64,000 nucleotides of DNA from Symbiodinium natans. Its lineage: Eukaryota > Sar > Dinophyceae > Suessiales > Symbiodiniaceae. How positions within the stretch are numbered: position 1 is the first letter of the stretch; each line of letters starts with the position of its first letter. The position numbers and the translations under genes were made by a program. Where the stretch lies: positions 87,235-151,234 of the forward strand of contig CAJNDS010002827.1 of the NCBI GenBank assembly GCA_905221605.1, given 5' to 3'. Under the pieces are notes generated by a model that worked only from the letters and a program-made list of their open reading frames with translations, was not told the origin of the DNA and ran no database searches. Below, one piece after another: positions 56,866 to 64,000 of this stretch.

Positions 56866-56966
56866 AGGGGGGGCGAGGGGGCGGCGGGGGGGGGAGGGGG
56901 GGAGGGGGGAGGGGCGGGGAGGGGGTGGAGGGGGGAGGGGGTGGAGGGGGGAGGGGGGGGAGCCCC
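56866..56966. repeat. GGGGGAGGGG tract
   Basis: About 100 bases are G-rich with regularly spaced A (GGAGGGGGGAGG, GGGGTGGAGG), directly before the presumed left part of element 2. Confidence 0.9.
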
Positions 56967-57034
56967 CTCCAAACCCCCCGCTTTGCTTACGCCGTGCAAG
57001 CTTCCTTCAAAAGCATGTTTTTCAAACCCATCAT

Positions 57035-57261
57035 GTGAGACCCTAGAACCCCTATGCGGAGCTGCAGTTGGTATTGTAGAAAGGAGTTGGTATTGAAAGT
57101 TGAAGGGTCAATGCACCCGGTAATCTTTTGGCTCAAGAACTTGGGCATGCGCCCTGAAGAAAGAAGTGTGTGTTGGTTTGGTGTTGGTTGGTCCAGGGGA
57201 TCAAGGGCTTCTGTTGGGGTTGACTGTTTTGTTCCCTGTCCCCCTTCGGTTGCCCCCCGTA
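57035..57261 (+). repeat. Presumed 5' LTR (or its 3' part) of element 2
   Basis: The primer site at 57262 implies that LTR sequence ends directly before it. The partner LTR is beyond the window, so the left border cannot be seen; TGTGAGACCC at 57035 is only a guess for the TG start. A TTTTGGCTCAAG word (57126-57137) equals the last 12 bases of the dinoflagellate spliced leader. Confidence 0.35.
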
Positions 57262-57275
57262 GGTTATGAGCCCAA
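57262..57275 (+). promoter_or_regulatory. Element 2 primer binding site (internal initiator tRNA-Met)
   Basis: GGTTATGAGCCCAA is complementary to UUGGGCUCAUAACC, the anticodon arm of initiator tRNA-Met with its GGG stem and CAU anticodon. Drosophila copia and yeast Ty5 prime from the same internal tRNA region, so this is a half-tRNA primer of copia type. Confidence 0.75.
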
Positions 57276-57323
57276 ATTAGGCTTCCTGCGGAATTGGTAA
57301 AGATTTTTCGTTTGTTTAACGCC

Positions 57324-60300
57324 ATGGACATGATGCGGCGTCGCTCTGAACCTGGACTGTCGCCCACGGCCAATGAAGCCGAAGTCAATCGTGGTGATGG
57401 GGGTGAAGAACGACAACAAATGGTGCAAGCACTGACAGATGGTAGGGAAGTTGCAATGATACAACAAACGTCTCAGGTGGAAAATGAAGCGGTTCCGTTT
57501 CCAGCAGCGAATCCTTTCTGGAGCGAGCGGGCTCATGAAGAAATGAGACTGAGGCAATCAAGGCCAGCAAGTCTTCCTGCGAGCGGAGGGGATAGAAGTG
57601 GTGAAGAAACAAGAAGGCCACCGTCGTTGCCAGAACTTCGGGATCGGGAACCTGCACCAGCTGAGAGGCCATCGTCAGGTTTAATGGGCCAGATGGAAAG
57701 AGGTAATATTGGTGAGACACAAGGCGAGGAAGAGCTTATTCCTGATCTGAGTGGTGAAGAACAAGGTGAAGATATGGCAGTGGTTAAGCGTGCACTTAAA
57801 GAGTTGCTTGTGCAAACAAAGGAGCTGGGAAACAGGTTGCATCGGGTGGAGGAGAAAAGCTATACCTCTGCTGCATCTGGGTCAGCTTCGAGAGCACGGA
57901 GCACTGGAGTGGTGGACGCAAATGCTGCATATCCTTTGGGAATGACTCCAGAGAAACAGTACCCGCCAGGACAAGTTTTCTACACTGATGGTATGGGTGG
58001 TTTCTGGACTGTGTTGCCTGATGGGACATGGCTGCCGATTGAGGGCTACGACCTGCCAAAGGGTTGTGACCTTCAACCCTTGCCTGAGCCCAGGAAAGGG
58101 GATGTTCATGTGGAGGATGAGAAAGAAGTGCCAATGATGCACGTAGCTGAAGGGAAGAAACCCTCCAGATTGCCTCCATTGAATTACCCCATGGGAGGTT
58201 CTGCAAGTGGTGGATATGCAAGTGGACCACCTGGTTTAACACATGTTCCGATTACTTCCTTGCCGTCAGGCGTTGATGGTTCTGCCGCACTGATGGGAAA
58301 TCAGCCCGGTTTTGTTTCAGCTCGGGAAACTTCGACGCAAGAGAACTCAGCAGGATCGGGTGGATATACAATGGTGGATGATGTTCCATATCGGTGGAAA
58401 ATGATCGCTGGGAAGTTGGAATTAGAAAAGGTTCCGCTCACAGCTTTTACGCCCGGAATGGGACATGGACTGCCTCAAGGGCCTGGTGGAAGGGTCAGCT
58501 TACCTCCTGGAGCGGCGGTGCCACGTGGTATGCCAAACATTGGTGATAGGTCTGGAACTGAACGTCCGGAGGCTCTTGGGAAGCATGTGATGAGCCTTCC
58601 TACTTTGGCAGACTACACACCAAGCAACCCGACGGCACTAGGAGATTGGATCGCAATGATCGAGCCAATGCTGTCTTCGCTGACAGATACAGGAAGAGTG
58701 TGGTGGCAATCCGTCTATACAAAGGCGTATCAGGCGTATGCCAAATGGTTGAGTGTCTCTCCGCTGGATAGGTTGGGCATCAAGGCTGAGCTGGAAGGGC
58801 TCAAGGTGGTTCGAACTGCGCATGTTTTGTTGGAGCAGAGAGCGGTGTCTTTGCTGCTACAGGCGATTCCGGAGAGATTGAAGACCGAGATCGTTTCCAC
58901 TCGAATGTTGGGGTCGGTGATGATATTTTACAAGTTGCTGACAGTCTACCAACCAGGTGGAGCAAACGAGCGCAGCACAATGTTAAACTTCTTGGTGCAA
59001 CCATCTTCAGCAACCTCGATCTCAGAGGCTATTAAGGGAGTGCGACAATGGGCGCAATGGCGTTCCCGATTAAGGGAGCTGCGAGCATCCGAGCCGGACG
59101 CTACCTTGCTTATCAAGGGATTAGATGCTTTATCATCCGCATTGCTGGCAAAACACCCTACGGTTCATTTCAGAGTGGCATCCTTTCGGGAGAAATTGGG
59201 GGTGGACTACTCACCGACCTCTGAAACTGCGACACAACTAGCTGAAATGTTACAGGCAGAGTTTGAACTGCTATTGCATAGTGCTGGTGATCAAGAGGTG
59301 AAGCAGGACTCGGACGCCAAGAAAAGGGCAAGGTTAAACAAAGCCCAAAAGGGAACTGGTGACGAGACGGAGGAGGGTGACAAAGGCAAAGGGAAAGGAA
59401 AAAGGTACAGCGGTGATGGTGAACGTCCTTTCTGTTGGATGTATGGGAAGACTGATGCAGGCTGCAAGTTCGGATCCCGTTGCAAATTTCGCCATGATAA
59501 AGACTCCCTGGAGCGAGGAAGATGTTTTGAGTGTGGGGCCGTTGGCCATCTACAGCCGCAGTGTCCATATAAGGATGGTGCAAGTTCCAATGTGGACTCA
59601 AACCCTGAGAGGAATAGATCAAAAGGGAATTCTCCCAAGGGGGGAAAGGGCGGCAAAGGTGCGAAATGGGGAAATGCCAAAAAGGCAGAGGTGGCTGAAG
59701 GGGGAGATGAGACGGCTAACGCGGGATTGGATAAAGGTTCTGCAAGTCCCTCATCACCATCAACACCCAATCAGGTCCTTGCTGAAGCGTTAGAAGTGCT
59801 GAAATCTATGAAGCTGTCATCAGCGCAGTCAGCATCAAGCGGGGATCCCAGTGTTCGAATGTTATGTGGCTCTGGATTGTTTCAGCAGGAAGGGAGAGTG
59901 GCGTTGGTGGATACAGCTGCTACGCATCTTGCGCGGACGCTTTTTCCATGGGAATGTTTACCCGACACTACTGTTATGGTGCAAAGCGCGCTTAGTGGTG
60001 TGACAATGAGGATTACAGAGAAAGGGACGTTGATTAGGGAAGACAATGGGCCCCTGATTATCCCTCTCTGGTTGATTTTGGAGTTTGGGGCGAACCTCAC
60101 CGTGATCAATGGGATGTGTCACGTGAGTGCAAAATCTTCGCTGGACCAGCTCTTGTGGTTTGAACATGGCTGTTTGGTTATGGATTACAAAACAGCTGAA
60201 AAAATGGTTTTGCATGCTGAAAGGCAGCGTGCGTCTTGGTCCCATTCTCAATGGAGGAATGGAAGGGCGGACTGTGGAGTCGGTTCGTCTGATGCCACGT

Positions 60301-63182
60301 TGTTGCCGAAGCAGGGAGAAGGCCGAGGAGTATGCGTTCTACATGTGGCCAGGGTTTCTGACACCAATGAGTGTTCGGGAATGGGCATGTTGGACTCGGG
60401 AGCATCACATCCTCTCAGATCACTTCGTCCTGGTGAACAGCTTCCGCAGCAAAAGGTGTTGGTGTCTTTAGCTGTTGGATCTCGGGAGATGTGTATTACC
60501 CCAGGTGGGACCCTGGTAACTCCTGAAATGGTAGATCCACTAGTGCCAATTGGCAAAGCGAGCGCCTTGGTTGGTCTCAGAGTTCAGTGGCGTGGTGGCA
60601 AGTGCACAGCCTCACATCCTGTTCTGGGGGAACTTCGCGTTCGTGATCTGAATGGGTGCCCTTGTTTGGAAAAGGAGGTGGCGCTTCAGATCATTGATGA
60701 AATGGATTGGTGTTCACCAAAGCAAGCATTGAAGGTGGCACGTATGGTTCAAGGGTGTCCGAATACGGACAACGAGGTGGCTGTAAAAGCGTCGTTGCAA
60801 AGCGCAGCGCGGACAGCGTCAGCGAATGAGGAGGAGTTCGTCCAGGCATGCTGGCGATTTCTTCGGTGGTATTATGGGGATATACCAGAAAATATGCTGA
60901 TGGAGCTGTTGCCACGTGGAGATATTGCGGCGTTGCCTTTCAACCGTCATAAAAGGAGACGGCTGGCACGAGCAAAAAAGGTGGTGGTACACCTATTTTC
61001 GGGAAAACAAAAATGGCATTTTCCCAGTCGGGATGTGGAGGTACTGGAGCTGGATTTGAAGAAAGGCGGTGACCTACATAATTCGAGCGTCTGGAAGCAT
61101 CTTCTGCATCTGGCGGCTGAAGGAAAGGTGGTTGCTGTGGTTGGAGGACCTCCATGCAGGACAGTGTCAAGGTTGAGAGGTGAAGACGGTGGTCCACCTG
61201 TATTACGCCGGCGCTGTGGGCCTGAACGGTTGGGATTAAAGAGTCTTCCTTGGCCACATCAAGAATTAGCTCAAAAGGATGGTGTTTTACTTCTGAAGAT
61301 GCTTTTCCTATATGACGTGGCGGTGCATTCAAGGTGTGAAACTGCTGAGGTCATCAATGGAAGTTCTGTCTTCTTTGGCATGGAAAGTCCTGGGGACCCT
61401 GAACTCATAGGGAAAGATTTCTCTCAGAACGGCAAAACGGTCTTGAGTGCTGAGGATCTGATGGATGGTTCTCAGGAAGGGTTCTCAAGTCCTACCTTCT
61501 GGAGTTGGCCAGAGGTGAAAAGCTTTTGTGAGCGTTATGGAATGTACGCTGCACATTTTGATCAAGGAGCATTGGGACATGCTCTGGTGAAACCTACGAC
61601 TTTCCTGGTGTCTGATATGGAACTGTGGGAATCGTTGGAACAGGTTCGCGTGGTTGTTCCGTGGTCGGCAACATTCGCTTCTACCCTGGAAGAACGTATT
61701 GGACAATCCTCCATATGGGCGCGATGGGCGTTTGGATTGGTTAAAAGAATACGTCACAGGTTGGCACAATGGTTGCATGAGAGCGATGCTGAACGGGAAG
61801 CTATGGTGTTAAAAAAGGAAGAACGAGAAGGGACGTTACGGAGGCTGACAACGGAGGAGCGAGCTTTCCGTGACCATTGCCTAAGGGGGCATATTCCTTT
61901 CAGACGTGATTGTCAAATCTGTGTGTCTGCCGCTGGGAAGGAGCGTCGCCATTTGAGGCGGAAGCATGGGGATGCTTACACTTTATCATTGGACTTAGCG
62001 GGTCCATATAAGTGTTCAAAGGATGCTCACCAGCAGAAGCCACGACACGCTGTTATTGGTGTGTATCAATTTCCAATGTTGGATCCCAATGTGGGTCGCC
62101 CTCTGGAAAAGGAGGAAGATGCGGATGAGGTGGAAGATCAGGTGGCAGATGAAGGTGCTGGTGTCGGAGAATGGTTAGGCGATGCAGTCGCTAATTTTGA
62201 GGAGGAAGATTCTGCGCCGGTGGAACCTGCGCCAGTTCTGGAGGCAGAGGTGTTGAAAATCCAAGCTTCTGAAAAATCCTGGAAGGAACTGAAGGACCAT
62301 TTGACCCAACCTGTCCGTATGATCAACTTCGTTATGGTGGAGCCGATTGTGGATAAACAGCAAACAACTGTTTTGTCGGCAGTTCAAAGAATGATGGTGC
62401 GCTTGCAGAGACATGGGTATCCGGTGTTGAGAATCCACTCAGATCGAGCGGGGGAGTTTGTCAATGCACGCTTCCGGTCCTTTTGTGAAACTCGTCTGAT
62501 ATATAGGACCACTGGTGATCCTGGAGTCCCGCAAACCAATGGGCGTGCTGAAGCATGTGTGGGTTTATTCAAACGTGGTGTCAGGTCGCTCTTAAAGGAG
62601 GCGCGACTCGGGCCGGCGCACTGGGCACTGGCTGCTCGCCATTGGTCAATGTTACGGTGGCAGAAAGCTGAAAGGGAGTTGGGGTTGAAACCGAAAGCAT
62701 TGCTTCCCTTTGGTGCTCAAATTCAAGTCAAACGTCGTCCGTGGGAGTTGCTGGGTCCAGATGGAACAAAGAAAGGTCGGCAATGGGTCGATCGTACGCA
62801 GCCCGCGCTTCTTTTGGGTCCATGCGATGACCTACCTGGTGGTTATTGGGTGGAAGCTCAAGGGACTGCAAAAGATCCGGATGAACTGGTGTTATTTCCC
62901 TGCACTACGATTTTTTCCAATATAAAGGAACCGCCTGAATTGGAGCTGGAAGGGGTGGTAGAAGAACAGGAGCCTTCTCCTCCAGAGCATCGTCTCAAAG
63001 GGAAAAAACCGGCGCTTCGGTTCGCTGATGAGGAAGGTCCTCCTTTACCTCCGCCTCGCGATCCTCCAGTTCGCCATCGGTTAAAGGAAAAAAGCCCGGC
63101 CTCTTCACTGCGTGGTCATGTGGGCTCCTTGCGCTTGCTTCGCAAGCGGGGGGAGTCCGCCCTTAGAAATTTTCGAGGATGA
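57324..63182 (+). CDS. gag-pol: Element 2 gag-protease-methyltransferase-like-integrase polyprotein
   Basis: This is 1952 codons from ATG 57324; the frame is open further upstream only through a TTG. Parts, in order: disordered N terminus with a coiled-coil-like piece (VKRALKELLVQTKELGNRLH); capsid-like region (DWIAMIEPMLSSLTDTGRVW, SVMIFYKLLTVYQPGG); CCCH finger 704-723; CCHC knuckle RCFECGAVGHLQPQC at 734-747; protease unit 1 with VDTAATH (Asp 863); protease unit 2 with LDSGASH (Asp 1024); methyltransferase-like domain from VVVHLFSG (1220) through GGPPCRTVS (Cys 1278) and MESPGD (1353); integrase zinc finger H1518, H1523, C1530, C1533 and DDE residues D1557, D1707, E1743 (D35E). About 90 extra acidic residues lie between the first two catalytic Asp. 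The frame stops at 63180-63182 after a Lys/Arg-rich tail. Confidence 0.92.
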   Translation: MDMMRRRSEPGLSPTANEAEVNRGDGGEERQQMVQALTDGREVAMIQQTSQVENEAVPFPAANPFWSERAHEEMRLRQSRPASLPASGGDRSGEETRRPPSLPELRDREPAPAERPSSGLMGQMERGNIGETQGEEELIPDLSGEEQGEDMAVVKRALKELLVQTKELGNRLHRVEEKSYTSAASGSASRARSTGVVDANAAYPLGMTPEKQYPPGQVFYTDGMGGFWTVLPDGTWLPIEGYDLPKGCDLQPLPEPRKGDVHVEDEKEVPMMHVAEGKKPSRLPPLNYPMGGSASGGYASGPPGLTHVPITSLPSGVDGSAALMGNQPGFVSARETSTQENSAGSGGYTMVDDVPYRWKMIAGKLELEKVPLTAFTPGMGHGLPQGPGGRVSLPPGAAVPRGMPNIGDRSGTERPEALGKHVMSLPTLADYTPSNPTALGDWIAMIEPMLSSLTDTGRVWWQSVYTKAYQAYAKWLSVSPLDRLGIKAELEGLKVVRTAHVLLEQRAVSLLLQAIPERLKTEIVSTRMLGSVMIFYKLLTVYQPGGANERSTMLNFLVQPSSATSISEAIKGVRQWAQWRSRLRELRASEPDATLLIKGLDALSSALLAKHPTVHFRVASFREKLGVDYSPTSETATQLAEMLQAEFELLLHSAGDQEVKQDSDAKKRARLNKAQKGTGDETEEGDKGKGKGKRYSGDGERPFCWMYGKTDAGCKFGSRCKFRHDKDSLERGRCFECGAVGHLQPQCPYKDGASSNVDSNPERNRSKGNSPKGGKGGKGAKWGNAKKAEVAEGGDETANAGLDKGSASPSSPSTPNQVLAEALEVLKSMKLSSAQSASSGDPSVRMLCGSGLFQQEGRVALVDTAATHLARTLFPWECLPDTTVMVQSALSGVTMRITEKGTLIREDNGPLIIPLWLILEFGANLTVINGMCHVSAKSSLDQLLWFEHGCLVMDYKTAEKMVLHAERQRASWSHSQWRNGRADCGVGSSDATLLPKQGEGRGVCVLHVARVSDTNECSGMGMLDSGASHPLRSLRPGEQLPQQKVLVSLAVGSREMCITPGGTLVTPEMVDPLVPIGKASALVGLRVQWRGGKCTASHPVLGELRVRDLNGCPCLEKEVALQIIDEMDWCSPKQALKVARMVQGCPNTDNEVAVKASLQSAARTASANEEEFVQACWRFLRWYYGDIPENMLMELLPRGDIAALPFNRHKRRRLARAKKVVVHLFSGKQKWHFPSRDVEVLELDLKKGGDLHNSSVWKHLLHLAAEGKVVAVVGGPPCRTVSRLRGEDGGPPVLRRRCGPERLGLKSLPWPHQELAQKDGVLLLKMLFLYDVAVHSRCETAEVINGSSVFFGMESPGDPELIGKDFSQNGKTVLSAEDLMDGSQEGFSSPTFWSWPEVKSFCERYGMYAAHFDQGALGHALVKPTTFLVSDMELWESLEQVRVVVPWSATFASTLEERIGQSSIWARWAFGLVKRIRHRLAQWLHESDAEREAMVLKKEEREGTLRRLTTEERAFRDHCLRGHIPFRRDCQICVSAAGKERRHLRRKHGDAYTLSLDLAGPYKCSKDAHQQKPRHAVIGVYQFPMLDPNVGRPLEKEEDADEVEDQVADEGAGVGEWLGDAVANFEEEDSAPVEPAPVLEAEVLKIQASEKSWKELKDHLTQPVRMINFVMVEPIVDKQQTTVLSAVQRMMVRLQRHGYPVLRIHSDRAGEFVNARFRSFCETRLIYRTTGDPGVPQTNGRAEACVGLFKRGVRSLLKEARLGPAHWALAARHWSMLRWQKAERELGLKPKALLPFGAQIQVKRRPWELLGPDGTKKGRQWVDRTQPALLLGPCDDLPGGYWVEAQGTAKDPDELVLFPCTTIFSNIKEPPELELEGVVEEQEPSPPEHRLKGKKPALRFADEEGPPLPPPRDPPVRHRLKEKSPASSLRGHVGSLRLLRKRGESALRNFRG

Positions 63183-64000
63183 CATGCAGGGTCTGGGGGA
63201 GCTGGAAGAAAATGCAGATGTTGAGGACAATGTTCCTGGTGATGAGTATTGGCCGACTTGCTGCTCTCCTCATGAAAATGCTTATTTGGTCTGCAAAAGT
63301 GAGACTGCCGAGGATGGAACACAGTTGGAGAAAGAAGAGCAAAAAGCCAAGTCAATGTATGAAAGGTCTATGTATGATTACGTGGACTGTGAGGAGCTTT
63401 TGGAAGGGATTGTATACCCAAAGAGGGTGAATCGAAGAGGTGGTATCAACAATTGGTGCACAAGTACGCGAGCTCTGGTGTTGGGCCACTATACTCATGG
63501 CGGAGTGTGTGGTATTACAAAAGAGACCCATCGAAGGCCATGGCTATGTCGTTATTTGGCATCATTCGTGAGGCACCACAATCCTGAAGCCAAATTTTCT
63601 GCTCTTCAGATCTCGTGCAATGCTCCGGTGTCATTGCATAGGGATAGTCACAATGAAAAACATTGCTGCAATTATGTGTGTGGTTTTGGTGACTATAAAG
63701 ATGGTCAGCTGTGGGTTGAGGATGAAAAGGTTTTGGAGGAAGGAGCTGAAGTGGTGGAACAATCCTATGGGAAGAAAGTCTTACCTGGAAAATTGGTGGA
63801 TATCCACTGGAACTTCATGTCGTTCTTTCCGAGAAAACTGCATGGTCCTATGCCTTGGAAAGGGAACAGGGTATTCTTGACAGGGTACACACCTGTTTTT
63901 ATGGAGCGTTTGAGCTACAAGGATAGGTGCTATCTTCTTCCGGAACCACAAGCTGAAGAAGGTGAAAAAAGGAAATGGTTAAAAATGACGCTGAAAGAAA
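63085..64000 (+). CDS. Element 2 second frame: 2OG-Fe(II) oxygenase-like domain, 3' partial
   Basis: This frame is in the +1 phase, opens at 63085 (no stop before the window end) and overlaps the first frame by about 98 bases. There is an ATG at 63118 and another at 63184, but entry by frameshift is equally possible. After an acidic linker (PPLEIFEDDMQGLGELEENA) comes a folded part with STRALVLGHYTHGG, then LHRDSHNEKHCCNYVCGFGD (HxD at 63637-63645), GQLWVE, and KLHGPMPWKGNRVFLTGYTP (distal His 63841-63843, Arg 63868-63870). HxD, distal His and Arg are the Fe(II) and 2-oxoglutarate ligands of this superfamily. HRDxHN recalls TET/JBP 5-methylcytosine or thymine oxygenases. Reverse transcriptase should follow beyond the edge. 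Confidence 0.75.
63132..63148 (+). promoter_or_regulatory. Stem-loop in the frame overlap of element 2
   Basis: CGCTTGC-TTC-GCAAGCG is a perfect 7-base stem with a 3-base loop, within a wider imperfect palindrome 63122-63164. It lies in the overlap of the two frames. It could assist a shift, or be a small insertion that caused the frame change. Confidence 0.5.

Follow-up and report, generated by a model that had tools for sequence, protein, structure and literature searches.

Retrotransposons that encode DNA methyltransferases (DNMTs) are known from dinoflagellates: in Symbiodinium, SymbioLINE-Dnmt and SymbioDIRS-Dnmt3, of the LINE and DIRS classes, carry such enzymes (de Mendoza et al., 2018, PMC5890265). 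According to the accessible portion of that study, no other retrotransposons of Symbiodinium are as abundant as Copia, a group that "lacks any DNMT domain," and the words oxygenase, TET, JBP, and AlkB are absent from its main text. Fungal transposons with TET/JBP-type dioxygenases have been described, and the available text, which concerns fungi, states that retrotransposons are without TET/JBP (Kojima, 2025, PMC12730594). Furthermore, long terminal repeat (LTR) retrotransposons of Phalaenopsis orchids carry a 2-oxoglutarate (2OG) dioxygenase of AlkB type that is active in vitro (PMC9289625), and a C5-methyltransferase and a TET-type oxygenase encoded by one mobile genome act sequentially in phage hypermodification (Burke et al., 2021, cited in PMC12730594). 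Here, a computational analysis is reported of a copia-type LTR retrotransposon of Symbiodinium natans that encodes both a C5-methyltransferase-like and a 2OG-Fe(II) oxygenase-like domain. The analyzed stretch, hereafter the window, comprises 64,000 nucleotides (assembly GCA_905221605.1, contig CAJNDS010002827.1, positions 87,235 to 151,234); the first 70% of the element, from position 57055, lies inside the window, and its end lies beyond it.

The element resembles SymbioLINE-Dnmt and SymbioDIRS-Dnmt3 in being a dinoflagellate retrotransposon whose C5-methyltransferase-type domain has been maintained by purifying selection. By contrast, those elements belong to the LINE and DIRS classes and their DNMTs were counted, as far as the accessible text indicates, by the Pfam profile PF00145, whereas the domain studied here belongs to a copia element, is not reached by PF00145, lies between protease and integrase, and is accompanied by a 2OG domain. 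The dinoflagellate precedent invoked in a preliminary description of the window thus stands for LINE and DIRS elements and is a different case for Copia, which is said to be without DNMT (PMC5890265). The fungal elements are DNA transposons with no methyltransferase partner mentioned in the available text (PMC12730594), whereas the present element is a retrotransposon with both enzymes. The orchid elements are Ty3/Gypsy and carry, in an additional open reading frame (ORF), an AlkB near the N6-methyladenosine (m6A) RNA demethylases, with no methyltransferase named in the text available (PMC9289625). The phage system includes further glycosyltransferases, as cited in PMC12730594, whereas in the present element both domains belong to one polyprotein and no glycosyltransferase was noticed, none having been searched for. 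In agreement with the preliminary description, no account of the pair in one element was found in the literature searched, the scope of which excluded most subscription journals. The element bears on two published statements, as worded in the accessible texts: that Symbiodinium Copia is without DNMT and, in the fungal study, that no retrotransposon carries TET/JBP. Because PF00145 does not reach the domain, a survey based on this profile could miss it.

Conservation and predicted folds of the two domains

The domain order of the element is gag, protease, methyltransferase-like, integrase, 2OG-like, and reverse transcriptase (RT)/RNase H (Table 1), and the presence of both enzyme domains is well supported. 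The motif strings from which the preliminary description had recognized them lie where it had placed them, the first set in the upstream ORF and the second in the +1 frame. In an alignment of the window with 22 relatives, which are 32–54% identical to it (alignment A1), the glycine of motif I, the PPC of motif IV, and the glutamate of motif VI are invariant (23/23) and the aspartate of motif II is nearly so; motif I contains the characteristic FxG. Over a wider set of 91 rows, the motif IV cysteine is kept in 86, falls in a gap in 3, and is another residue in 2, and the relative P0081, outside A1, reads GGPPAG instead of GGPPC. The predicted model (predicted local distance difference test, pLDDT, 90) adopts an S-adenosylmethionine-dependent methyltransferase fold of C5 type, with DNMT3, DNMT1, and HhaI as the closest folds. 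Matches to PHROG DNA-methyltransferase families were obtained for relatives and not for the window's own member.

In 24 aligned 2OG-like domains, the window included, the histidine of HxD is present in 23 and the aspartate in all 24, the first iron ligand being lost in the relative P0074. The model (pLDDT 81) is a predicted double-stranded beta-helix with HxD...H and the 2OG-binding arginine, which are also seen in the alignment, and matches the folds of TET, NgTET1, and CcTet and those of AlkB and FTO; a TET protein is the top single match in both structural aligners. The VIA-align structure-comparison lists for both domains report the families that match and do not thereby exclude families absent from them. 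Neither PPC nor HxD has been lost in all relatives, and an origin of the motifs by chance is rejected by the conservation of the catalytic residues and by the predicted folds of both regions. The identification of a copia-like element encoding both domains is thereby borne out, and structure prediction, which had been proposed as a check, gave the expected fold in both cases.

Table 1. Features of the element in the window and in the sequence L009, which continues past it
Feature	Position	Strand	Basis or remark
Target-site duplication, 5′ copy, CCCTA	57050..57054	+	flank sequence; 3′ copy after the 3′ LTR, L009:3357-3361
5′ LTR, 207 bp, TG...TA	57055..57261	+	blastn against 3′ LTR; boundaries read in sequence
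Possible primer-binding site, GGTTATGAGCCC	57262..57273	+	sequence
Upstream ORF, encoding a gag-like part with two zinc fingers, a pair of protease-like repeats, the methyltransferase-like domain, and integrase	57294..63182	+	Pfam rve, zf-CCCH, zf-CCHC, all under cut-offs
CCCH zinc finger of gag-like part	59433..59495	+	Pfam zf-CCCH, below cut-off
CCHC zinc knuckle	59523..59564	+	Pfam zf-CCHC, below cut-off
Protease-like repeat 1, VDTAATH (D-T-A in place of D-S/T-G)	59898..60230	+	protease segment model, E 4e-27
Protease-like repeat 2, LDSGASH	60381..60713	+	protease segment model, E 3e-36
C5-methyltransferase-like domain	60933..61751	+	motif conservation, predicted fold; between protease and integrase
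Motif I, HLFSG	60990-61004	+	within methyltransferase-like domain; VVVHLFSG from 60981
Motif II, D	61053	+	within methyltransferase-like domain; ELDL from 61047
Motif IV, GGPPC	61143-61157	+	within methyltransferase-like domain; GGPPCRTVS from 61143
Motif VI, ESP	61383-61391	+	within methyltransferase-like domain; MESPGD from 61380
Motif VIII position, DQGALGH...KPT	from about 61560	+	within methyltransferase-like domain
Integrase: zinc-binding part, then D...D...E core (by eye)	61842..62855	+	Pfam rve E 0.0015, below cut-off
Downstream ORF, +1 relative to upstream ORF	63112..64000, continuing to L009:503	+	in other copies, same frame as methyltransferase-like domain
TET/AlkB-type 2OG-Fe(II) oxygenase-like domain	63337..63927	+	conservation, predicted fold; between integrase and RT
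Codons of iron/2OG residues	H 63637, D 63643, H 63841, R 63868	+	in 2OG-like domain; HRDSHN from 63637, GQLWVE from 63703, HGPMPW from 63841
RT/RNase H part	L009:787-2961		outside window; another frame again in window copy
3′ LTR	L009:3150-3356 (window-equivalent 66715-66921)		partner of 5′ LTR

Copies, relatives, and selection

The genome searched comprises 759 Mb in 2543 contigs. With the 2OG ORF as the query, at least 132 places were found (own copy included; 1740 candidates), with no stop inside the matches; 28 of these 132, among the matches listed, lie in a frame that runs for 3000 amino acids (aa) or more without a stop. Full-length relatives, for which the preliminary description had suggested a search, exist: among the matches listed, 19 copies hold both domains in one such frame, as judged by eye against 128 places from the methyltransferase search. 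Furthermore, a 1.1-kb stretch spanning the frame junction has a length in the window copy that differs from that in all 29 other copies compared. The +1 frame is therefore real in the window copy and is damage private to it, not a family trait, because single-frame copies are found and the junction stretch of the window copy matches none of the compared copies in length. A programmed +1 frameshift for making the 2OG domain is rejected, since many copies have this domain in the common frame. LTR pairs were sought in 10 copies and both repeats were found in 7, being identical in 6 and 96.5% identical in 1; the pair of the window copy is 99.03% identical over 207 bp (blastn). Copies with identical LTRs include both domains in single frames. 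The lineage has been mobile recently with both domains in place, and its polyprotein joins what are likely a writer and an oxidizer of bases.

Selection was estimated by pairwise, pooled dN/dS ratios, which are 0.185 for the methyltransferase-like domain (11 copies, one stop), 0.132 for the 2OG domain (window and 20 copies), 0.087 for integrase (30 copies), and 0.047 for RT/RNase H (19 of 21 sequences, two being dropped for short coverage); a separate, smaller integrase set used 6 of 8 sequences. The 20 copies for the 2OG estimate were a non-random set, taken from the upper part of the methyltransferase list such that none also appeared among the 2OG matches, and in all 20 the 2OG domain occupies the expected place with HxD, H, and R intact. 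Values of 0.005–0.009 for the 2OG domain were rejected as biased, because the copies concerned had been ranked by 2OG protein score. Purifying selection on both domains is shown.

A search with the methyltransferase region yielded 86 proteins, and a 2OG search added 3 (4 matches, 1 already known); those with an organism in their name are from Symbiodinium and Cladocopium. Among these 89 proteins, the methyltransferase-like domain occurs in 87, protease in 82, integrase in 81, RT in 58, and the 2OG-like domain in 16 (in P0007 only as a 20-residue scrap), and the order where they co-occur is protease, methyltransferase, integrase, 2OG, RT. A profile search added 20 proteins, and both domains occur in 14 of the resulting 109, including the near-duplicates P0003/P0005 and P0075/P0076 and the 402-aa fragment P0092. 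Hidden 2OG domains in the remaining relatives were sought and rejected, no profile-profile comparison having been made: unfiltered hmmsearch of the 109 proteins gave 35 matches at E ≤1.1e-8, the next being P0007 at 0.039. The spacer between integrase and RT measures 405–658 aa in the 10 rows with the 2OG domain vs. 185–406 aa in the 47 without it. In a tree of methyltransferase and integrase (66 rows; P0008, P0074, and P0086-P0089 left out for missing or split domains), the 10 2OG rows fall into two separate groups and five changes are needed, at least four by the starred branches. The count is inflated because P0002, P0006, and P0009 stop 36–128 aa past the integrase and P0007 keeps its scrap; one gain followed by losses may also account for the pattern.

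Two further observations concern the relatives. In P0087 (2OG domain at 1512-1702), no methyltransferase, integrase, or RT was detected, and a zinc-binding pattern of integrase type, recognized by eye, follows the domain; this protein may represent a second kind of retroelement. A dUTPase follows RT/RNase H in the methyltransferase-bearing relatives P0015 (2451-2576, Pfam E 8.5e-36) and P0041 (1660-1787, 4.7e-33) and is also present in P0078 according to precomputed domains, as a third nucleotide-related enzyme of the element group.

Possible roles of the domain pair

The reading that we prefer, and to which we give about an even chance, is that of a copia-type dinoflagellate lineage with a two-enzyme base-modification cassette that first methylates and then oxidizes. 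Protease processing would free both enzymes, which would travel with RT and integrase; the methyltransferase-like domain would use S-adenosylmethionine to methylate cytosine in the element's own complementary DNA (cDNA) or RNA, whose methyl group would then be oxidized by the Fe/2OG-dependent partner, from 5-methylcytosine (5mC) to 5-hydroxymethylcytosine or further. New copies would consequently arrive with host marks or escape them. Such a succession of steps on the cDNA of the element is favored because both domains sit in the nucleic-acid-acting part of the polyprotein and because both folds match the phage pair of C5-methyltransferase and TET, as far as it is described in PMC12730594.

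In its furthest form, which we regard as doubtful, the polyprotein would be a self-contained base-hypermodification machine that marks each new copy by methylating and then oxidizing cytosine, or by making 5-hydroxymethyluracil (5hmU). To our knowledge, such chemical marking of new copies is so far known from phages. If true, the unusual base composition of dinoflagellate DNA may owe something to Copia enzymes, since no other retroelements of Symbiodinium are as abundant.

Several findings weigh against sequential modification. The 2OG domain is present in only 10 of the 57 rows with integrase and RT, and its absence from most methyltransferase-bearing relatives implies that the pair is dispensable for copia mobility. 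Canonical motif VIII of C5-methyltransferases is QxRxR; it is missing here, the position reading DQGxxGHxxxKPT across the aligned relatives. A target-recognition domain is likewise missing from the model, in which only approximately 70 residues, mostly helices, follow the last core strand. With these two parts missing, specificity for cytosine in DNA is no more than possible. The profile check that had been proposed, made with Pfam, came out negative: among 23 members, none is matched by PF00145 even at a threshold of E 10, and Tet_JBP stays under its cut-off, its best score of 13.3 bits vs. 34.9 (E 0.048) covering the HxD region of P0003, the one member matched among 9. Foldseek searches with the methyltransferase-like model reached a best E of 3e-3 with TM-scores near 0.3, AlkB and FTO lie within approximately 1 Z unit of TET for the 2OG-like model, the two types of match being tied, and dN/dS of the methyltransferase-like domain exceeds that of RT or integrase. 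Finally, the observed/expected ratio of CpG differs little between the element within the window (0.69) and the remaining window sequence (0.71), and amounts to 0.60 for the 3′ part vs. 0.71 for its flank; these values show no clear footprint of self-methylation and lend the model little support, if any.

An opposite arrangement, which we consider unlikely, is that of a writer and an eraser acting against each other or against host CG methylation, in which the TET-like 2OG domain would strip host 5mC and the methyltransferase-like domain would set or reset marks at another step. The predicted folds would suit an antagonistic pair as well as a sequential writer and oxidizer, and the TET structural matches of the modeled 2OG domain fit an eraser. 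Most of the Symbiodinium genome is reported, in the accessible text, to be CG-methylated (PMC5890265), and fungal transposon TETs are proposed, in the text available, to counter silencing (PMC12730594). This arrangement is disfavored by the CpG values of the element, which stay near or below those of its surroundings, and by the many methyltransferase-bearing relatives without a 2OG domain. Singleton C-to-T changes at CG vs. CHH sites number 18/325 vs. 22/1214, 11/165 vs. 29/675, and 3/92 vs. 5/321 in three copy sets, an excess per site of 3.1, 1.6, and 2.1 times, which only suggests host CG methylation. As a separate observation, A:T to G:C singletons (61 and 46 in the copy sets L012-L039 and L041-L059) are as common as C:G to T:A singletons (50 and 42), which is unexpected for a CG-methylated genome.

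Equally improbable, in our estimate, is an AlkB/FTO-like 2OG domain acting on RNA or alkylated bases, as in the orchid Gypsy elements, together with an RNA-methylating partner, the pair managing the genomic RNA of the element and not its DNA. The closeness of AlkB and FTO to TET in structural comparison accords with this explanation; the TET protein ranking first in both aligners and a predicted methyltransferase-like fold nearest to DNA C5-methyltransferases argue against it. A PF00145 scan of the genome listed 117 places, none at element copies (compared by eye); these canonical methyltransferases elsewhere in the genome include repeated 422- and 562-aa ORFs with equal scores.

5hmU is abundant in dinoflagellate DNA, and the two domains are enzyme candidates in organisms with both pervasive CG methylation and this base. 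A JBP-like 2OG domain could convert thymine to 5hmU such that new copies resemble 5hmU-rich host DNA, the methyltransferase-like domain having a separate role. The association of 5hmU with Breviolum repeats (PMC11071213, as given in its accessible part) and the predicted TET/JBP-type fold are compatible with such a role, which is nevertheless improbable to a further degree: neither sequence nor fold favors thymine over 5mC, and the 20 profile-search matches include no named host enzyme. Likewise, there is little reason to expect that either domain, or the pair, has lost catalysis and persists for binding nucleic acid or for a structural role in the polyprotein, as the non-canonical motif VIII and the residues lost in P0074 and P0081 might suggest, given the invariant PPC and E in A1 (which does not contain P0081), the cysteine in 86 of 91 rows, the near-complete HxD, and the 2OG residues kept in 20/20 copies.

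Boundaries and other parts of the element

The element had been placed at 60981..64000, a span that is too small at both ends, as the LTRs show (Table 1). Its assignment to Ty1/copia is based on the 207-bp LTR pair with a 5-bp duplication, on integrase being upstream of RT in all 57 rows with both, and on an RT of RVT_2 type. The last feature is established via relatives, with Pfam RVT_2 above cut-off in P0088, P0074, P0015, and P0041 and below it in P0003, P0016, and P0083; the RT of the window copy has YVDD. The candidate primer-binding site is presumably complementary to a sequence resembling the anticodon arm of Met-tRNA.

The tandem protease-like repeats also occur in P0001-P0005, P0007, and P0008, other relatives with a protease having one, and possibly form a protease dimer within a single chain, one half of it being altered. 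Downstream of RNase H (L009 ~2640-2961), the translation, read by eye, shows a long hydrophobic segment followed by a His/Cys-rich motif. The element is inserted in a telomere-like CCCTAAA tract, which follows the 3′ LTR directly (L009:3357-3400) and includes the duplicated CCCTA, and a G-rich tract lies immediately 5′ of the element (window 56866-56972).

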